DNA of 64,000 nt from the NCBI GenBank assembly GCA_025963715.1, contig JAOQAG010000008.1:149907-213906 (forward strand). The letters run 5' to 3'. The notes under the pieces are model-generated. The model was given only the letters and a program-made list of their open reading frames with translations. It was not told the origin of the DNA and did no database searches. Shown in pieces: positions 1 through 7,300 of this stretch (within the stretch, counting starts at the first letter, position 1; the number at the start of each line of letters is the position of its first letter). The translations under genes and the position numbers were made by a program. This stretch comes from Bacteroidota bacterium (lineage in GTDB: Bacteria; Bacteroidota; Bacteroidia; 2-12-FULL-35-15).

Positions 1-699
1 TTCATGAAAAAAGATACCACAGCTTCTGTTACTGTTGTTGGTGGCGGATCGGGCGTTGGGATCACAGCTTTGGTAGATGGAACTACAGATATAGCAATGG
101 CTTCCCGCGATTTAAAAACCGAAGAAAAATTAAAATTTACAGAACAGAAAAAAGACATTCAGCAAATTACCATTGCTTTTGACGCACTTTCAGTAGTTGT
201 AAATCCTGAAAATAAAGTAAGCCAGCTTACACGCGAACAACTGGAGAAAATCTACACCGGCGAGATCACCAACTGGAAAGAAGTAGGCGGCGCCAACGAA
301 AAAATCGTAGCTTATTCACGTGAATCCAGTTCCGGAACATTTGAATTTTTTAAAGAACACGTAATGAATAAAAAAAATTACGCAACTACGGTATTGAGCA
401 TGCCTGCAACTGGCGCTATCGTTCAATCGGTGAGCCAGACAAAAGGCGCGATCGGGTACATCGGGCTTGCGTATGAAACAAAAGAAGTAAAATCTATCGC
501 GGTTTCTTACGACCAGGGAAAAACATACGTAGCACCAAGTGTAGCTGCTGCAAAAGATAAAACCTATCCTATTTCCCGTCCACTGTATTATATGTACGAC
601 AAAGTAAACGAAGCAAAAGTTAAAACATTTGTAGATTACGCTTTATCTGACGAAGGACAAAAAGTTGTTTCTGAGATTGGTTACGTTCCGCTTAAATAA
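1..699 (+). CDS. pstS: Phosphate ABC transporter substrate-binding protein PstS (5' truncated)
   Basis: Periplasmic phosphate-binding protein that delivers Pi to the PstCAB permease. The reading frame is open to the left edge, so the signal peptide and N-terminus lie outside the window; the Met at base 4 is probably internal. Visible PstS features are GSGVGITALVDGTTDIAMA, the VVNPEN...LTREQLEKIY...ITNWKEVGG segment, and RESSSGTFEFF, which carries the Ser-Gly-Thr phosphate contacts known in this family. The C-terminus ends in DEGQKVVSEIGYVPLK, typical of the family. It is followed by a terminator and then by a separate promoter for pstC. Family assignment is firm; only the start is unknown. 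Confidence 0.95.
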   Translation, partial: FMKKDTTASVTVVGGGSGVGITALVDGTTDIAMASRDLKTEEKLKFTEQKKDIQQITIAFDALSVVVNPENKVSQLTREQLEKIYTGEITNWKEVGGANEKIVAYSRESSSGTFEFFKEHVMNKKNYATTVLSMPATGAIVQSVSQTKGAIGYIGLAYETKEVKSIAVSYDQGKTYVAPSVAAAKDKTYPISRPLYYMYDKVNEAKVKTFVDYALSDEGQKVVSEIGYVPLK

Positions 700-1003: not shown

Positions 1004-1070
1004 ATAACATTAAATTAACACAAGCATAATGTTTACTAAACCGCCACAAAAACACGTCGGATTATCTTTG
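1004..1070 (+). promoter_or_regulatory. Putative Pho box plus -7 element upstream of pstC
   Basis: Three hexamers lie exactly 11 bp apart: ATAACA (1004), TTAACA (1015) and ATAATG (1026). An exact Bacteroidota -7 word TATCTTTG (TANNTTTG) is at 1063-1070. PhoB and PhoP boxes in other phyla are also 11-bp-period direct repeats, and the B. subtilis form is TTAACA-like. The last hexamer starts 37 bp before the -7 word, the same distance as at 5442/5479 upstream of the DUF47-PiT pair. Activator identity is inferred. Confidence 0.65.
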
Positions 1071-1108
1071 CCCCAGATTATTGAAAGAAGAATTGATCCC
1101 AACCACGC

Positions 1109-2317
1109 TTGAAAACATTTTATAAAAAATTCTCCGAAAAATTTATTGAAGGCCTGCTCATGCTGAGCGGCACAGTAACAAGCTTAACAGTTGTACTGAT
1201 CGTTATTTTCCTTTTCAAAGAAGGCCTGGGCGTATTCGATAAAAAACCGGTAGAAGACGGATACGTGATTGCCCTCAATAAAAACAATCCCGTTCAAAAA
1301 CTTTCTTCCGAACAAATAAAAAATATTTACGATCAAAAGATCACCCACTGGAGTGAACTGGGCGGTAAACCCGATTCTATTGTTTTGTTCCGTTTGGAAG
1401 ACATCTCTAATTTTTACAGTGACGATGAGATCGGTGCTAATTTTGAAGGATTGCCAAACTGCATCAATCGTTTGATAGACAGCCTTCCCGACATCATCGC
1501 ATTTTTCCCCGATAAATACCTCGATAAAAATTTTAAAGGAAAACAACTCGCCGTTGACAAGATCTCCTTTAAAGAATTTTTTGGCGGAAAAGAATGGTTT
1601 CCTACGGCACAACCATCCGCACAATTGGGTGTATTACCTTTAATCCTCGGCACACTTTGGGTAAGCCTTGGAGCTATTTTATTAGCATTACCGCTTGGTT
1701 TGGCAGCAGCCGTATACATGAGCGAAATTGCAAACGACCGCGTGCGCCGCATCATGAAACCTTTAATCGAGCTATTGGCGGGCATTCCATCCGTAGTCTA
1801 CGGATTCTTTGGTTTGGTAATTATTGTTCCGTTGATCCAAAAAACATTTAACCTGCCCGTAGGCGAAACAGGTTTAGCAGGAAGCATTGTACTCGGCATC
1901 ATGGCATTGCCCACCATCATTACCATTTCGGAAGATGCCATGCGCAACACGCCGCGCGCCATGAAAGAAGCCAGTCTTGCACTCGGTGCCAGCAAATGGC
2001 AAACCATTTACAAAGTAGTGGTTCCGTATTCTATTTCCGGAATTTCTGCAGGTGCCATCCTCGGGATCGGCCGCGCCATCGGGGAAACCATGGCTGTATT
2101 GATGGTAACCGGAAACGCAGCCGTAATACCGCATAGCATATTGGAACCTGTACGCACCATTCCTGCCACCATTGCCGCCGAATTAGGCGAAGCACCAAAC
2201 GGAGGATTACATTACAAAGCCCTGTTTGCCTTGGGTTGCATTTTATTCCTCATTACTTTATTCATTAACCTCACTGTCGAATTTATTTCCAACAGAAACA
2301 AATACAACAAGCACTAA
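1109..2317 (+). CDS. pstC: Phosphate ABC transporter permease PstC with a PstS-like periplasmic insert
   Basis: Inner-membrane permease subunit of the high-affinity Pi transporter. TM1 is about residues 18-37. The core TM bundle starts near 172, and the cytoplasmic EAA loop that docks onto PstB is KEASLALGASKWQTIYKVV (about 287-305). At 402 residues it is longer than E. coli PstC (about 320). The extra ~120 residues form a periplasmic loop, and residues 51-95 resemble PstS (KLSSEQIKNIYDQKITHWSE; the GG and IV positions also match). The start is TTG: an in-frame stop lies at 1094-1096 and no earlier ATG exists. The stop codon overlaps the pstA ATG (TAATG), so the two genes are translationally coupled. 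Confidence 0.93.
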   Translation: MKTFYKKFSEKFIEGLLMLSGTVTSLTVVLIVIFLFKEGLGVFDKKPVEDGYVIALNKNNPVQKLSSEQIKNIYDQKITHWSELGGKPDSIVLFRLEDISNFYSDDEIGANFEGLPNCINRLIDSLPDIIAFFPDKYLDKNFKGKQLAVDKISFKEFFGGKEWFPTAQPSAQLGVLPLILGTLWVSLGAILLALPLGLAAAVYMSEIANDRVRRIMKPLIELLAGIPSVVYGFFGLVIIVPLIQKTFNLPVGETGLAGSIVLGIMALPTIITISEDAMRNTPRAMKEASLALGASKWQTIYKVVVPYSISGISAGAILGIGRAIGETMAVLMVTGNAAVIPHSILEPVRTIPATIAAELGEAPNGGLHYKALFALGCILFLITLFINLTVEFISNRNKYNKH

Positions 2318-3201
2318 TGCAAATGCCTGACGAAAATAAATTAGCAAAAAGCAAAAAACGGAAACAAGCCGTTGCATTTGGTATTTTCCGGATCCTCACC
2401 TATTCCATCGTCGCTATTTTATTCATCATCCTTTCATTCATTATCTACAAAGGAATTTCCGTGATCAACTGGAATTTTATCACACAAATGCCTACAGAAG
2501 GAATGACCAAAGGCGGAATTTTTCCGGCCATCGTCGGCACGCTCTGCCTCGTTGCAGGCAGCATGATCTTTGCTTTTCCGGTGGGTGTGCTTGCCGCGAT
2601 CTACATGAATGAATATGTGAAAGACGGGATCATTAAAAAGATCATCAAACAAATGACCAACAACCTTGCAGGGATCCCATCCATTGTATTCGGCCTTTTC
2701 GGGATGAGCTTGTTTGTAAATAAATTACATTTCGGCGATTCGATTTTAGCAGGTTCACTCACACTCGGATTGCTTGCATTGCCTGTTGTGATCCGCACTA
2801 CAGAGGAATCATTAAAAGCAGTAGACAACACATTCCGCCATGCAAGCCTTGGATTGGGCGCTACCAAATGGGAAACCACCCGTCGCGTAGTATTACCGAT
2901 CGCATTCCCCAACATCATCACCGGACTGATCCTTTCCATTGGCCGCGTATCCGGCGAAACAGCACCGATCCTATTTACCGTTGCCGCTTACTTTTTACCG
3001 AAATTACCCACCAGTATTTTCGACCAGGCAATGGCATTACCATATCACTTGTATGTATTATCCACCAGTGGAACAGATATAGAAGCAACACGCCCAATTG
3101 CTTACGGCACAGCGCTGGTGCTGATCATCATTGTACTGATAGCAAATTTACTGGCAAACGGGTTGCGTAAATATTTTGGAAAAAAAGTAAAAATGAATTA
3201 A
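2317..3201 (+). CDS. pstA: Phosphate ABC transporter permease PstA
   Basis: Second inner-membrane permease subunit, pairing with PstC. It has 294 residues: a charged N-terminus, TM1 at about 26-44, then the permease core with the EAA motif HASLGLGATKWETTRRVV (about 175-192) and the family sequence LILSIGRVSGETAPILF. The start overlaps the pstC stop by one base. The next gene, pstB, follows after 160 bp that contain a palindromic repeat. Confidence 0.95.
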   Translation: MQMPDENKLAKSKKRKQAVAFGIFRILTYSIVAILFIILSFIIYKGISVINWNFITQMPTEGMTKGGIFPAIVGTLCLVAGSMIFAFPVGVLAAIYMNEYVKDGIIKKIIKQMTNNLAGIPSIVFGLFGMSLFVNKLHFGDSILAGSLTLGLLALPVVIRTTEESLKAVDNTFRHASLGLGATKWETTRRVVLPIAFPNIITGLILSIGRVSGETAPILFTVAAYFLPKLPTSIFDQAMALPYHLYVLSTSGTDIEATRPIAYGTALVLIIIVLIANLLANGLRKYFGKKVKMN

Positions 3202-3233
3202 AAAAAAACCACAAATTAATTTGCAAAAAAAGC

Positions 3234-3321
3234 GCCACAGATTCACAGATTAAAAAAATAATTTTTAATTTCTCTGATCTGTGAAATTAAAATCACAATA
3301 AAAAATCTGTGAATCTGTGGC
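3234..3321. repeat. Palindromic repeat, family A, copy 1
   Basis: GCCACAGATTCACAGATT (3234-3251) is the exact inverted match of 3304-3321. The AT-rich interior has partial inner complementarity around TGATCTGTG. It sits between pstA and pstB. Other copies or part-copies are at 9523, 13627, 27315, 34044, 44978 and 56562. Confidence 0.85.
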
Positions 3322-3361
3322 AAAGAAAAAACCTGCAAACCGGTGGTTATAAAATAAAATC

Positions 3362-4114
3362 ATGAATAAAATTGAATCAAAAGACGTTAACTTTTTTTAC
3401 GGCGCTTCACAAGCCCTGAAAAACATTAACATTGCCATTAAGCCAAATACGGTTACGGCCCTCATCGGCCCGTCCGGATGCGGAAAATCTACTTACCTGC
3501 GCTTGTTCAACCGCATGAACGACCTGATCGACAACACAAAAATTAACGGGCAGGTACTGATCGACGGAGATGATATTTATGCAAAAGGTGTGAACGTGGA
3601 CAGCCTGCGCAAAAAAGTAGGAATGGTCTTTCAAAAACCAAATCCATTTCCGAAAACCATTTTTGAGAATGTAGCGTATGGATTGCGTGTAAATGGGATC
3701 AGCGATAAAAAATTAATTGAAGAACGTGTGGAAACGTCCATCAAACAAGTGGTTTTGTGGGATGAAGTAAAAGATAAATTAAAAAAATCGGCGTTTGAGC
3801 TTTCGGGCGGACAACAGCAGCGTTTGTGCATTGCACGCGCATTGGCCATTCAACCATCCATTTTGTTGATGGACGAACCTACATCCGCGCTGGATCCGAT
3901 CTCCACTGCAAAAGTAGAAGAGCTGATCTATGAATTAAAAACAAAATATACGATCGTGATCGTAACACACAACATGCAGCAAGCCGGTCGCGTAAGCGAT
4001 ACCACTGCATTTTTTTACATGGGTGAACTGATCGAACACGACAATACAAAAACTATCTTTACAAATCCGAAAATTGAACGTACACAGAATTATATTACCG
4101 GACGGTTTGGATAG
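3362..4114 (+). CDS. pstB: Phosphate ABC transporter ATP-binding protein PstB
   Basis: Cytoplasmic ATPase that powers PstCA. It has 250 residues, the usual length. Walker A is GPSGCGKST (36-44), the Q-loop Gln is at 91, the signature is LSGGQQQR (147-154), Walker B is ILLMDEP (167-173) and the H-loop is THN (202-204). The ending [10 protein letters not shown] is typical of PstB. It is probably transcribed with pstCA, although the palindromic repeat between pstA and pstB could modulate read-through or mRNA stability. Confidence 0.96.
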
Positions 4115-4581
4115 AAAGAGTCAAGAATCAAGATAAAAGAATCAAGACAAAAAAGGAAATAGACAATAGGCAAAAAGTAAAAAGTAAACAATAAAAAAGT
4201 AGACAATAAATAAATTAAAAAATAAACAATAAAACAAAAAACTGCGCAGGATCAATTCCCCTCTTGAGAGGGGTTAGGGGTGTGTTCTGCGATAAGTACA
4301 ATAAAAAAAGTAAAAAGAAAACAAACGCAGCATCTGCATATAGCAACCCAATGAACTAGTAAACAAATAAACCATTGAACATCTAGCATCTGCATACAGC
4401 AAAACTTTAAACTTTTGATCCCGATAGTTATCGGGATTAAACTTTGAACTAATTTATCACACACAGATTAGTACATTAGTAAAAATTAGTATTTAGTAGA
4501 TTAACAGGTTCTTAAATTTATGCAGACTTATTACTCCTGCACAATTTTCAAATTAACACATTTTCAAATTTTCAAATTATA
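4115..4581. repeat. Repeat mosaic between pstB and phoU, no gene seen
   Basis: From left to right: AT-rich words AGACAATAAA/AAAAGTAAACAATAAA (about 4140-4240); a hairpin module CCCCTCTTGAGAGGGG within 4242-4291; CAGCATCTGCATA words (about 4330-4400); and the AAACTTTAAACTTTTGA family (4399-4451), interrupted by the palindrome TCCCGATAGTTATCGGGA at 4419-4436. TTAGTACATTAGTAAAA words lie at about 4468-4500. The stretch 4140-4291 reappears in reverse orientation at about 48071-48215. I see no convincing promoter for phoU. Confidence 0.8.
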
Positions 4582-5265
4582 ATGAGTCACTTAGACATTG
4601 AATTACAACACTTAAAAAGCGAAACCATTAAAATGTGGACGCTGGTGAATTTACAACTGCGTAAAGGGAAAGAATCGCTGATAAAGCTCGACAAAGACCT
4701 TGCGCGGGAAGTTATTTTAAGTGAGCGCCGCGTAAATGCACATGAGCTGAAGCTGGACCGCGACTGCGAAAATATCTTCGCACTGTTTAACCCGGTCGCC
4801 GTGGATCTGCGCTGCGTACTGGCAGTTTTGAAGATCAACAATAACCTGGAACGTACCGGCGATATTGTGGAAGGTATTGCCAAATTTGTGACCAATGTGG
4901 ATCCCAATTTTGATAAAAAAGTACTGGAAATAACCCGCGTAGTGGAAATGTACGAAGCCGCCATTAATATGATGGATGAAGTGCTGGAAGCATTCGACAA
5001 GGAAAATACATCTATTGCGCGCAAAGTGTTCCAGCAAGACGAATTGCTGGACGATATTAACCTGAAAGCCAACAACGTGATCGCCGATTATATCCGCAAT
5101 CATCCCGATAATATTGAACCGGCATTGTATGTATTATCAATTATCCGCAAACTGGAACGCGTGGGCGATCAGGCAAAAAACATGGCGGAAGAGATCATTT
5201 TTTACATCGAAGCCAAAGTGTTAAAACATCGCTCGAAAGCAGAAAAGAACAATACGGATCTTTAA
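4582..5265 (+). CDS. phoU: Phosphate signalling complex protein PhoU
   Basis: Cytoplasmic all-helical protein that links Pst transport to the Pho sensor kinase and dampens Pho signalling when Pi is plentiful. It has 227 residues with two tandem three-helix PhoU repeats. Each carries the family's acidic metal-cluster motif: LERTGDI (89-95) and LERVGDQ (191-197). The pst-phoU gene order supports the call. No phoR or phoB gene is present in the window. Confidence 0.93.
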   Translation: MSHLDIELQHLKSETIKMWTLVNLQLRKGKESLIKLDKDLAREVILSERRVNAHELKLDRDCENIFALFNPVAVDLRCVLAVLKINNNLERTGDIVEGIAKFVTNVDPNFDKKVLEITRVVEMYEAAINMMDEVLEAFDKENTSIARKVFQQDELLDDINLKANNVIADYIRNHPDNIEPALYVLSIIRKLERVGDQAKNMAEEIIFYIEAKVLKHRSKAEKNNTDL

Positions 5266-5310
5266 AATGCAAATAATGTTATTATGAAAGCAGAAACATT
5301 CTTCTGAGTT

Positions 5311-5337
5311 GTCATCCCGAAACATTGCGAGGATGAC
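5311..5337. repeat. GTCATCC...GGATGAC hairpin module
   Basis: GTCATCC (5311-5317) pairs with GGATGAC (5331-5337). It is a short relative of the GTCATCC-ended hairpins found at 16627, 17151, 18725, 27263, 27487, 45070 and 45837. Confidence 0.6.
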
Positions 5338-5408
5338 GGCAAATAAACAGCTTAAGAATTAAAAACATTTATTATAAATAACTAAAAATCAATCAATTAC
5401 AATTTTAC

Positions 5409-5486
5409 TTAACATTAAGTTAACATTAGATTAACGCAATGTTAATGAATTGTCGCGCCCATACTGGAGATGGAGTTTTACTTTTG
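5409..5486 (+). promoter_or_regulatory. Putative Pho box plus -7 element upstream of the DUF47-PiT operon
   Basis: Four hexamers lie at an exact 11-bp period: TTAACA (5409), TTAACA (5420), TTAACG (5431) and TTAATG (5442). The exact -7 word TACTTTTG is at 5479-5486. No -33 TTG lies at a normal distance, as expected for an activator-dependent promoter. The last repeat to -7 spacing (37 bp start to start) equals that upstream of pstC, although the bases in between are unrelated. This strongly suggests a shared regulator, probably a PhoB-type response regulator. Confidence 0.72.
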
Positions 5487-5533: not shown

Positions 5534-6178
5534 ATGAGTCTTAACATTTTCCAGTATTTTACCCCAAAAGACAAAAACTTTTTTCCTTTATTCGAAAAAG
5601 CTGCAGCCAATGCAACCGCCACTTCTAAAATATTAGTGGAGCTTGTAAATTCAACCGGTTCCGACAAAAGAAGAGAATTATTCCGCGAGATCGAACGCCT
5701 TGAACACGTAGGCGACAATATCACACACGAAACTTTCAACGAATTAAGCGCCAACTTCATCACACCATTTGACCGCGAAGATATCCAGCGCCTTGTTTCG
5801 GCGATCGACGATATTGTGGATTACATCCACGGCGCATCAAAACGTATGGAACTTTACAAAGTAGAGCAAATGACACCGGCCATCATCAAATTATCGGAGC
5901 TGATCCAGAAAGGTTCGGAAGAACTGGAGATCGCCGTTTCCGAATTGAGAAACCTGAGAAACATTACCAAAATAAAAGAAGCGACCGTACGCATCAACAG
6001 TATCGAAAATCATGCAGATGATATTTTTGATATGGCAATCGCAAAATTATTTGAAGAAGAAAAAAATGCAGTGGAAGTCATTAAAATGAAAGACGTATTA
6101 TCCATGCTTGAAACAGCAACCGATAAATGCGAGGACGCCGCAAACGTGATCAACACCATTTTAATTAAAAATGCGTAA
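5534..6178 (+). CDS. DUF47 (PhoU-like) family protein, PiT partner
   Basis: A 214-residue helical cytoplasmic protein of the DUF47/PhoU_div family, which is commonly encoded next to PiT phosphate transporters. The PhoU-like acidic motif EIERLEHVGDNITHE is at about 52-66 and the diagnostic FDREDIQRLVSAIDDIVDYI segment follows. It lies 66 bp upstream of the PiT gene on the same strand, so the two are probably one operon under the Pho box at 5409-5486. Function is inferred from family and context. Confidence 0.9.
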   Translation: MSLNIFQYFTPKDKNFFPLFEKAAANATATSKILVELVNSTGSDKRRELFREIERLEHVGDNITHETFNELSANFITPFDREDIQRLVSAIDDIVDYIHGASKRMELYKVEQMTPAIIKLSELIQKGSEELEIAVSELRNLRNITKIKEATVRINSIENHADDIFDMAIAKLFEEEKNAVEVIKMKDVLSMLETATDKCEDAANVINTILIKNA

Positions 6179-6244: not shown

Positions 6245-7300
6245 ATGACATTACTCGTAATATTAATTATACTTGCCCTCATCTTCGATCTCATCAATGG
6301 GTTTCACGATGCGGCAAATTCCATTGCCACCATCGTTTCCACGAAAGTGCTTTCTCCTTTCCAGGCGGTGATCTGGGCTGCCTTTTTTAACATCGTTGCC
6401 TTCTGGATCTTCGATTTAAAAGTAGCCGATACCGTTGCAAAGATTGTTAACAGCGATGCCATCAACTTCCAGGTAATTTGTGCCGGGCTGGTTGCCGCCA
6501 TTAGCTGGAATTTATTAACGTGGTGGTTCGGGATTCCATCCAGCTCTTCCCATACACTCATCGGTGGATTTGCCGGTGCAGCCATCGCCTATGCAGGATT
6601 TGGCGTAGTAAACCAGGAAAAAATCCTGATTACGTTCGCATTTATTTTTCTTGCTCCCATCATCGGGATGCTCATCGCCGCCATTATTTCCACCATCATC
6701 ATGCACATCTGCCGCAGGACCAATCCTGCCAAGGCCGACCGCTGGTTCCGGAAATTACAGCTGGTTTCCTCCGGGTTATTCAGCATTGGTCACGGTGGTA
6801 ACGATGCACAAAAAGTAATGGGAATTATTGCCGCCGGATTAATGGTATATGCCGCCAAATTACATGCAGCGGGTTTACCCGTTCCCGATTGGGCAAGCGT
6901 AGTACAGGTTGCAGACGCACACGGAAAAATGGGGATCAAACACATTCCAAACTGGATCCCAATGGCTTGTTATTCCGCCATAGGAATTGGTACCATGATG
7001 GGCGGATGGAAAATTGTAAAAACCATGGGAACCCGCATCACCAAAGTAACTCCGTTTGAAGGCGTAAGCGCAGAAACATCCGGCGCTATTACTTTATTTT
7101 TGACTGAAAGATTAGGAATTCCTGTAAGCACCACGCATACCATTACCGGTTCCATCATTGGTGTGGGAATTACAAAACGCATTTCGGCAGTACGCTGGGG
7201 TGTTACCATCAACCTGATGTGGGCATGGGTGCTTACCATTCCCGTGAGCGGCTTGTTAGGCGCATTTGTGTACTGGATCTTTAAGATTTGCGGAGTGTAG
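6245..7300 (+). CDS. PiT-family inorganic phosphate transporter
   Basis: Multi-pass inner-membrane permease for Pi (as metal phosphate with H+ or Na+ symport in characterised members). It has 351 residues, in the bacterial size range. The two inverted family signatures are visible: NGFHDAANSIAT (about 18-29) and GHGGNDAQKVMG (about 182-193). The two Ser/Thr-rich re-entrant motifs IPSSSSHTLIGG and IPVSTTHTITGS are also present. The first signature has the common FHDAANS variant of GANDVANA. With the DUF47 gene it forms a Pi-uptake route alongside Pst. Confidence 0.94.
   Translation: MTLLVILIILALIFDLINGFHDAANSIATIVSTKVLSPFQAVIWAAFFNIVAFWIFDLKVADTVAKIVNSDAINFQVICAGLVAAISWNLLTWWFGIPSSSSHTLIGGFAGAAIAYAGFGVVNQEKILITFAFIFLAPIIGMLIAAIISTIIMHICRRTNPAKADRWFRKLQLVSSGLFSIGHGGNDAQKVMGIIAAGLMVYAAKLHAAGLPVPDWASVVQVADAHGKMGIKHIPNWIPMACYSAIGIGTMMGGWKIVKTMGTRITKVTPFEGVSAETSGAITLFLTERLGIPVSTTHTITGSIIGVGITKRISAVRWGVTINLMWAWVLTIPVSGLLGAFVYWIFKICGV

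Follow-up and report, generated by a model that had tools for sequence, protein, structure and literature searches.

The stretch analysed here (the window; 64,000 nucleotides, C16:149907-213906 of a 4.91-Mb Bacteroidota genome in 51 contigs) contains a phosphate-uptake locus, composed of part of pstS2, followed by pstC, pstA, pstB and phoU and by genes encoding a DUF47 protein and a PiT-type phosphate transporter (Table 1). Two promoters of this locus, those of pstC and of the DUF47-PiT pair, carry arrays of TTAACA-like hexamers. We consider it probable (roughly four chances in five) that both arrays are operators of a PhoB-like response regulator encoded on the same contig, including the mechanism and regulon proposed below.

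Table 1. Features of the phosphate locus and of related sites (positions without a contig name are those of the window)
Feature	Position	Strand	Remarks
pstS2 (part)	4..699	+	starts before the window; whole gene C16:149742-150605, own array C16:149653; TIGR02136 above cut-off
Hexamer array before pstC	1004..1031	+	ATAACA 1004, TTAACA 1015, ATAATG 1026; slots -59, -48, -37 from the -7 word
-7 word of pstC, TATCTTTG	1063..1070	+	matches the Bacteroidota -7 consensus TANNTTTG; starts 37 bp past the last array hexamer
pstC	1109..2317	+	402 amino acids, TTG start; TIGR02138 E 1.2e-91, above cut-off; Pfam BPD_transp_1, PBP_like_2
pstA	2317..3201	+	Pfam BPD_transp_1; position after pstC
pstB	3362..4114	+	Pfam ABC_tran; position
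phoU	4582..5265	+	Pfam PhoU
Hexamer array before DUF47-PiT	5409..5447	+	TTAACA 5409, TTAACA 5420, TTAACG 5431, TTAATG 5442; slots -70, -59, -48, -37
-7 word of DUF47-PiT, TACTTTTG	5479..5486	+	starts 37 bp past the last array hexamer
DUF47 / PhoU_div protein	5534..6178	+	214 amino acids; PF01865 E 2.3e-24
PiT-type phosphate transporter	6245..7300	+	351 amino acids; PF01384 PHO4 E 7.7e-89
PhoB-like response regulator	C16:110484-111170		beside a PhoR-like kinase, about 39 kb upstream; best PhoB match of the genome, same contig
Second TTAACA array, 10-10-11-bp steps	C15:42224-42289 (L179:6225-6290)		same genome; TATGTTTG behind; flanked by a divergent histidine kinase-response regulator pair on one side and a small secreted protein on the other

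Promoters of Bacteroidota have recognition words of their own. The hexamer positions and 11-bp steps given in an earlier note on this DNA proved exact in both promoters, as did the 37 bp from the start of the last hexamer to the -7 word. The note also described the -33 element as missing; scored as TTTG 27 to 18 bp before the -7 word, it is absent from all 16 orthologous pstC promoters and from 21 of 22 DUF47-PiT promoters, a set in which two rows (L122 and L137) had their -7 word misassigned by the script.

The strict pattern, defined as three WTAAYR hexamers at 11-bp steps, occurs at three places on the plus strand of the window and at none on the minus strand, all three within the two promoters. 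Genome-wide, four occurrences were found (one at pstC, two overlapping before DUF47-PiT and one tandem repeat), compared with two in a control, the same pattern read backwards. When the triple was followed by N8-38 and TANNTTTG, the two promoters were the only matches (control 0), while two hexamers with the same continuation gave seven matches (control 4), three of them Pho-type promoters. It is extremely improbable that the arrays are a product of chance or of AT-rich repeats and serve no regulation: although the fourth genomic match (C16:137163) is a plain tandem repeat and loose patterns show no excess over the control, no triple arose when the window was simulated 300 times with an order-2 Markov model, the arrays are kept between relatives, and their phase relative to the -7 word holds across the phylum (see below). 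Three tandem copies of TTAACACAGCT make up the match at C16:137163, which we do not count as a Pho promoter, given that the plus-strand gene that follows lies 1.4 kb away and no -7 word is in phase.

Weaker arrays precede further phosphate genes. With one mismatch, a pattern of two hexamers, N31 and TANNTTTG has eight matches, at the porin and pstS2 promoters and at six other places (C16:125305, C20, C27, C29, C36 and C51). In the porin and pstS2 promoters the last hexamer starts 26 bp before the -7 word; ahead of the phoB-divergent operon, one of whose genes encodes a TonB receptor, a weaker pair (TTAACC, TTAACT) is placed at 37 bp. The genome scan that the earlier note had called for thus returned the strict pattern before pstC and PiT and near-matches before pstS2, the porin gene, phoB and the phoB-divergent operon. 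That note had predicted enrichment upstream of pstS, phosphatases and phoBR; pstS2 and phoB are among the near-matches, and phosphatases were absent from the array matches, with no search aimed at them made.

Among 36 genomes of the same order, the strict pattern followed by a -7 word was detected in 16, with 20 matches (control 2), 12 of them at 37 bp. The genes behind these matches are pstC (11), DUF47 (4, two of one promoter) and a deoxyhypusine-synthase-like gene (3), while two matches have no open reading frame (ORF) behind them. A pstC orthologue is present in 17 of the genomes, and its promoter exceeds the array-score threshold of 12 (the author's choice, as is the 11 used for the pst-locus step control below) in 16; the -7 word lies at 37 bp in 15 of these and at 38 bp in one. 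Of 31 DUF47 matches, the 30 that had a locus were read, and 25 of their arrays score above 12; relative to the best three-hexamer window, the -7 word is placed at 26, 37 or 48 bp in 16 of these, deviates by one base in seven and is absent in two. An array was also found at 29 of 30 phoB loci (19 read by script and 11 with another anchor), starting 51-83 bp before the gene start, itself an estimate; at other steps, scores above 12 were obtained in 0/19 and 1/11 of these loci, respectively.

In the 16 pstC promoters, conservation reaches 1.50, 1.69 and 1.39 bits per base in slots -59, -48 and -37 and 1.83 in the -7 word; the corresponding values are 1.38 and 1.30 for the spacers within the array, 1.02 for slot -26 and 0.35 for slot -15. 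Whole arrays, spacers included, are kept because the order genomes are close relatives, and the informative contrast is that between the conserved array and -7 word and the far less conserved stretch between them. The half-conserved slot -26 may still be used.

Across the phylum, the strict pattern with a -7 word yielded 53 matches, two of them in this genome (control 4). After merging of overlapping matches of one -7 word (53 rows reduced to 48, and to 46 without this genome), the distance from array to -7 word was 15 bp in 20 cases, 26 bp in seven, 37 bp in five and elsewhere in 14. Hence 32 of 46 distances fall in a single 11-bp phase, with 15 bp the commonest; the associated p-value (2e-22) is too small, as it was computed as if related genomes were independent. 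The identical geometry claimed for the two window promoters therefore stands as far as 37 bp is common to both, and gives way, as the sole geometry, to a phase-locked series of 15, 26 and 37 bp in which 37 bp is one register. As a universal distance 37 bp was dropped, since pstS2 and the porin gene of this genome use 26 bp and the commonest value in the phylum is 15 bp.

Of 51 matches outside this genome, 29 loci were read, with Pfam searches covering all except L075, L082, L084 and L096 (L075 is seemingly near-identical to L073). The 19 in-phase loci precede genes of pstS (5), PiT (1), OprP-type porins (2), TonB receptors (7) and others (4), whereas the ten out-of-phase loci include one pstS and one TonB receptor gene. 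Plug and CarbopepD_reg_2 domains occur together in six of the seven TonB receptors found in phase; similar receptors of Flavobacterium johnsoniae are strongly induced by phosphate depletion, one being the product of the gene after phoB (PMC8115612, available sections). By eye, the products encoded behind the in-phase arrays L069 and L072 resemble pectate-lyase-like lipoproteins that low phosphate induces in F. johnsoniae, as described in the same sections (PMC8115612). At L079 and L080, histidine kinase genes lie behind TTAATG-rich arrays with an offset of 30, outside the Pho phase.

In one genus of the same class (21 genomes, chosen because G189 already had matches), two hexamers placed 15 bp from a -7 word gave 12 matches (control 5), situated before pstS (5), DUF47 (3), other genes (2) or no ORF (2); L274 repeats L076, and L268, L272 and L273 were named by eye. 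These loci bear on the possibility that PhoB binds both window promoters, activating pst and repressing DUF47-PiT, as orfA-pit of Sinorhizobium meliloti is reportedly repressed by PhoB. Despite this precedent, we regard such repression as unlikely: DUF47-PiT shares with pstC the strand, the 37-bp distance and the missing -33 element, and in the genus in question the arrays at DUF47 and at pstS have one and the same end point, 15 bp from the -7 word.

The 11-bp step was compared with other steps in 29 pst loci, where 21 overlapping array windows in 15 loci were obtained at step 11, as against 1, 1, 2 and 0 at steps 10, 12, 9 and 13. A 12-bp step gave no match in the 36 order genomes. At a 10-bp step, 17 of these genomes yielded 17 matches in all (control 0), and 15 of the matches represent one promoter type, with 10-10-11-bp steps, present in 15/36 genomes and exemplified here by the array on C15. 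In all five such loci read, the divergent ORF resembles the histidine kinase of this genome, the only one assigned by Pfam, and four of the five have a small secreted protein next in line. The hexamer may thus be shared with another two-component system, and the step may carry the specificity. For the Pho-box call made in the earlier note this means that the hexamer alone does not name PhoB.

The candidate regulator contains receiver and Trans_reg_C domains (Pfam) and adjoins a PhoR-type kinase; it is called PhoB-like from this context. Its recognition region is DRTIDVHIRKLREKL, compared with DRTVDVHIRRLRKAL in Escherichia coli PhoB. Binding of the arrays by another OmpR-family regulator is quite unlikely. 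One example is encoded at C16:137401-138084, between phoB and the pst genes; it is 54% identical to PhoB with the same helix core (RTIDVHIRKLREKL), and TTAACA arrays do adjoin another two-component system. The PhoB-like protein, however, ranks first in the genome as a match to PhoB, its own promoter carries an array in 29 of 30 relatives, and the helix of the regulator adjoining the 10-10-11 array differs (RSMDVYIAKLRKYL).

Several findings weigh against assigning the arrays to the PhoB-like regulator. Apart from the shared helix core and the TTAACA arrays beside a second two-component system, the regulator falls below the family cut-offs (TIGR02154, 232.2 vs 296.2 bits; NF053854, 221.8 vs 270), and the PhoR-like kinase is likewise below that of TIGR02966 (239.8 vs 334.2). 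The scoring model of the array scan was built from four promoters that it then ranks, so the scan, in which a tandem repeat, DUF47-PiT, porin, pstC and pstS2 come out on top of the joined 116-kb stretch (scores 26.9 to 20.9), ranks other places and not those four. Ten simulated stretches gave maxima of 9.9-18.8, a range that includes the score of the phoB-promoter array of this genome (15.3). In none of 19 phoB loci examined does the array have an in-phase TANNTTTG, and many phoB loci score on the other strand too; this array may therefore serve phoB, the divergent operon or both. Two hexamers with N31 and TANNTTTG (at most two mismatches) show no genomic excess (63 vs 71 in the control). Three order matches at offset 35 (L053, L057 and L067) precede the deoxyhypusine-synthase-like gene (Pfam for L053 only), and four of the 19 in-phase phylum loci (L069, L070, L072 and L085) precede genes with no evident phosphate role.

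On the same side stands the limited distribution of the arrays, the strict pattern being restricted to 44 of 395 phylum genomes. In the set of named pstC loci (51 of 80), an array lies directly before pstC in 12: seven close metagenome-assembled genomes (MAGs), Flavobacterium seoulense, Flavobacterium flevense and one Flavobacteriales MAG, all at 37 bp, and two Massilibacteroides without the -7 word. The PstC proteins of the seven MAGs are 85-91% identical to that of this genome and are not independent of the order set. Scores above 12 were otherwise seen at L225, with another step, and at L184, on the other strand. Stretches directly before pstS exceed 12 in none of 27 loci. Adhaeribacter, Rufibacter and Flavihumibacter have the array at a greater distance, ahead of a porin-pstS-pstC row, and the first gene behind such upstream arrays encodes a Porin_O_P protein in eight of ten cases run through Pfam. 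In Prevotella-type pstC promoters (L208, L210-L213 and L223), motifs approximating GTAAC, GTAAC and TGTCA at 11-bp steps with a -7 word in phase were noticed post hoc, below the threshold. Two published results also point away from this assignment. In Riemerella anatipestifer, pstS expression rose in a two-component system mutant, according to the accessible part of PMC5399024, so the PhoP of that species may be another system; oprP of F. johnsoniae was not induced, as stated in the sections available of PMC8115612.

On balance, the arrays show sequence properties expected of a Pho box: 6-7 bp direct repeats every 11 bp, a position before phosphate-uptake genes and the regulator gene (pstC, PiT, pstS2, porin and phoB), and a fixed place relative to the core promoter, except at phoB itself. 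The Pho-box interpretation advanced earlier is supported by their occurrence before pst genes, PiT, porin and phoB, both here and in relatives. In the mechanism we propose, PhoB protomers would bind head to tail on the TTAACA-like hexamers, one per 11-bp unit, and the array would replace the missing -33 element, helping RNA polymerase to use a promoter having only TANNTTTG. An array could end 15, 26 or 37 bp from the -7 word with the same face to the polymerase, because the slots differ by whole 11-bp units. The likely regulon comprises pstCAB-phoU, DUF47-PiT, pstS2, the porin gene, phoB and the operon divergent from phoB, with a low-phosphate signal as the presumed trigger. Judging from the promoter sequences, both transporters of inorganic phosphate may thus answer to one activator, as the earlier note had suggested.

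Upstream of the window lie pstS1 (C16:148534) and the OprP-type porin gene; pstS1 has no strong array of its own (best score 9.3) and probably belongs to one operon behind the porin gene. Just before the latter (C16:143561-146457), a SulP-transporter-like protein and two tandem beta-carbonic-anhydrase-like proteins were recognised by eye. At C16:125039-126936 (L037:9040-10934), adjoining metallophosphoesterase and glycosyltransferase genes resemble the PlcP-glycosyltransferase pair of phosphate-starvation lipid remodelling, and are preceded by low-scoring arrays only (10.3). Residues 49-98 of PstC resemble PstS (PBP_like_2, E 2e-7; TIGR02136, E 9e-8 at 50-95), and alignments of many Bacteroidota PstC proteins span this stretch.

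Given a phase-fixed box, the Pho regulons of Bacteroidota could be recognised from sequence; such a box would place PiT and Pst under one regulator and make activation without a -33 element testable, and with the 10-10-11 array one could cleanly examine what separates sister regulators sharing one hexamer. As a reading somewhat less likely than not, we put forward a rule for the whole phylum: PhoB arrays might replace the -33 element and slide by whole 11-bp units (15, 26 or 37 bp from the -7 word), lying in this order two units upstream of the place equivalent to the E. coli Pho box, and sister regulators reading TTAACA in one cell might be told apart by step (11-11 vs 10-10-11).

In the available part of PMC3547664, which gives no box sequence, PhoB of Bacteroides fragilis binds its pstC promoter in electrophoretic mobility shift assays, and expression of pstC in low phosphate depends on it; this is a Bacteroidota PhoB acting on a pstC promoter, as proposed here. 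Bacteroides luti and Bacteroidaceae HV4-6-C5C, its closest relatives among the loci read, have pstC promoters that score 8.6, under 12. The nearest experimental match to the array hexamer is the motif found for R. anatipestifer PhoP by DNA affinity purification sequencing, the most conserved bases of which are TTTAACA; in the accessible text the authors call it ArcA-like, and neither an 11-bp array nor a phase to the -7 word is described there (PMC9603813). Predicted Pho boxes near plcP were described in marine bacteria in a survey that includes flavobacteria (PMC4796936, part available, which shows no sequence for them), and the term 'Pho box' is absent from the main text of the F. johnsoniae study (PMC8115612). 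Searches of the open literature brought to light no operator or Pho-box sequence for a Bacteroidota phosphate regulator, and such a sequence may exist outside it.

The PhoP box of Bacillus subtilis consists of TTAACA-like repeats about 11 bp apart and has nearly the same hexamer and period as the arrays, with other promoter words. The Pho box of E. coli pstS is likewise built of 11-bp repeats (CTGTCAT at -106 and -95, CTTACAT at -84 and CTGTCAC at -73 from the start codon), the last of which starts 17 bp before TATTTT, which we take to be the -10 element of this promoter; this is near the commonest distance in the phylum, 15 bp from the -7 word. The window arrays, at 37 bp, thus lie two units further upstream than the E. 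coli place, and they differ from the E. coli Pho box in the hexamer, TTAACA rather than CTGTCAT, and in having TANNTTTG in place of a -10 element. For E. coli PhoB, the part available of a review (PMC4415409) describes tandem 11-bp repeats bound head to tail.

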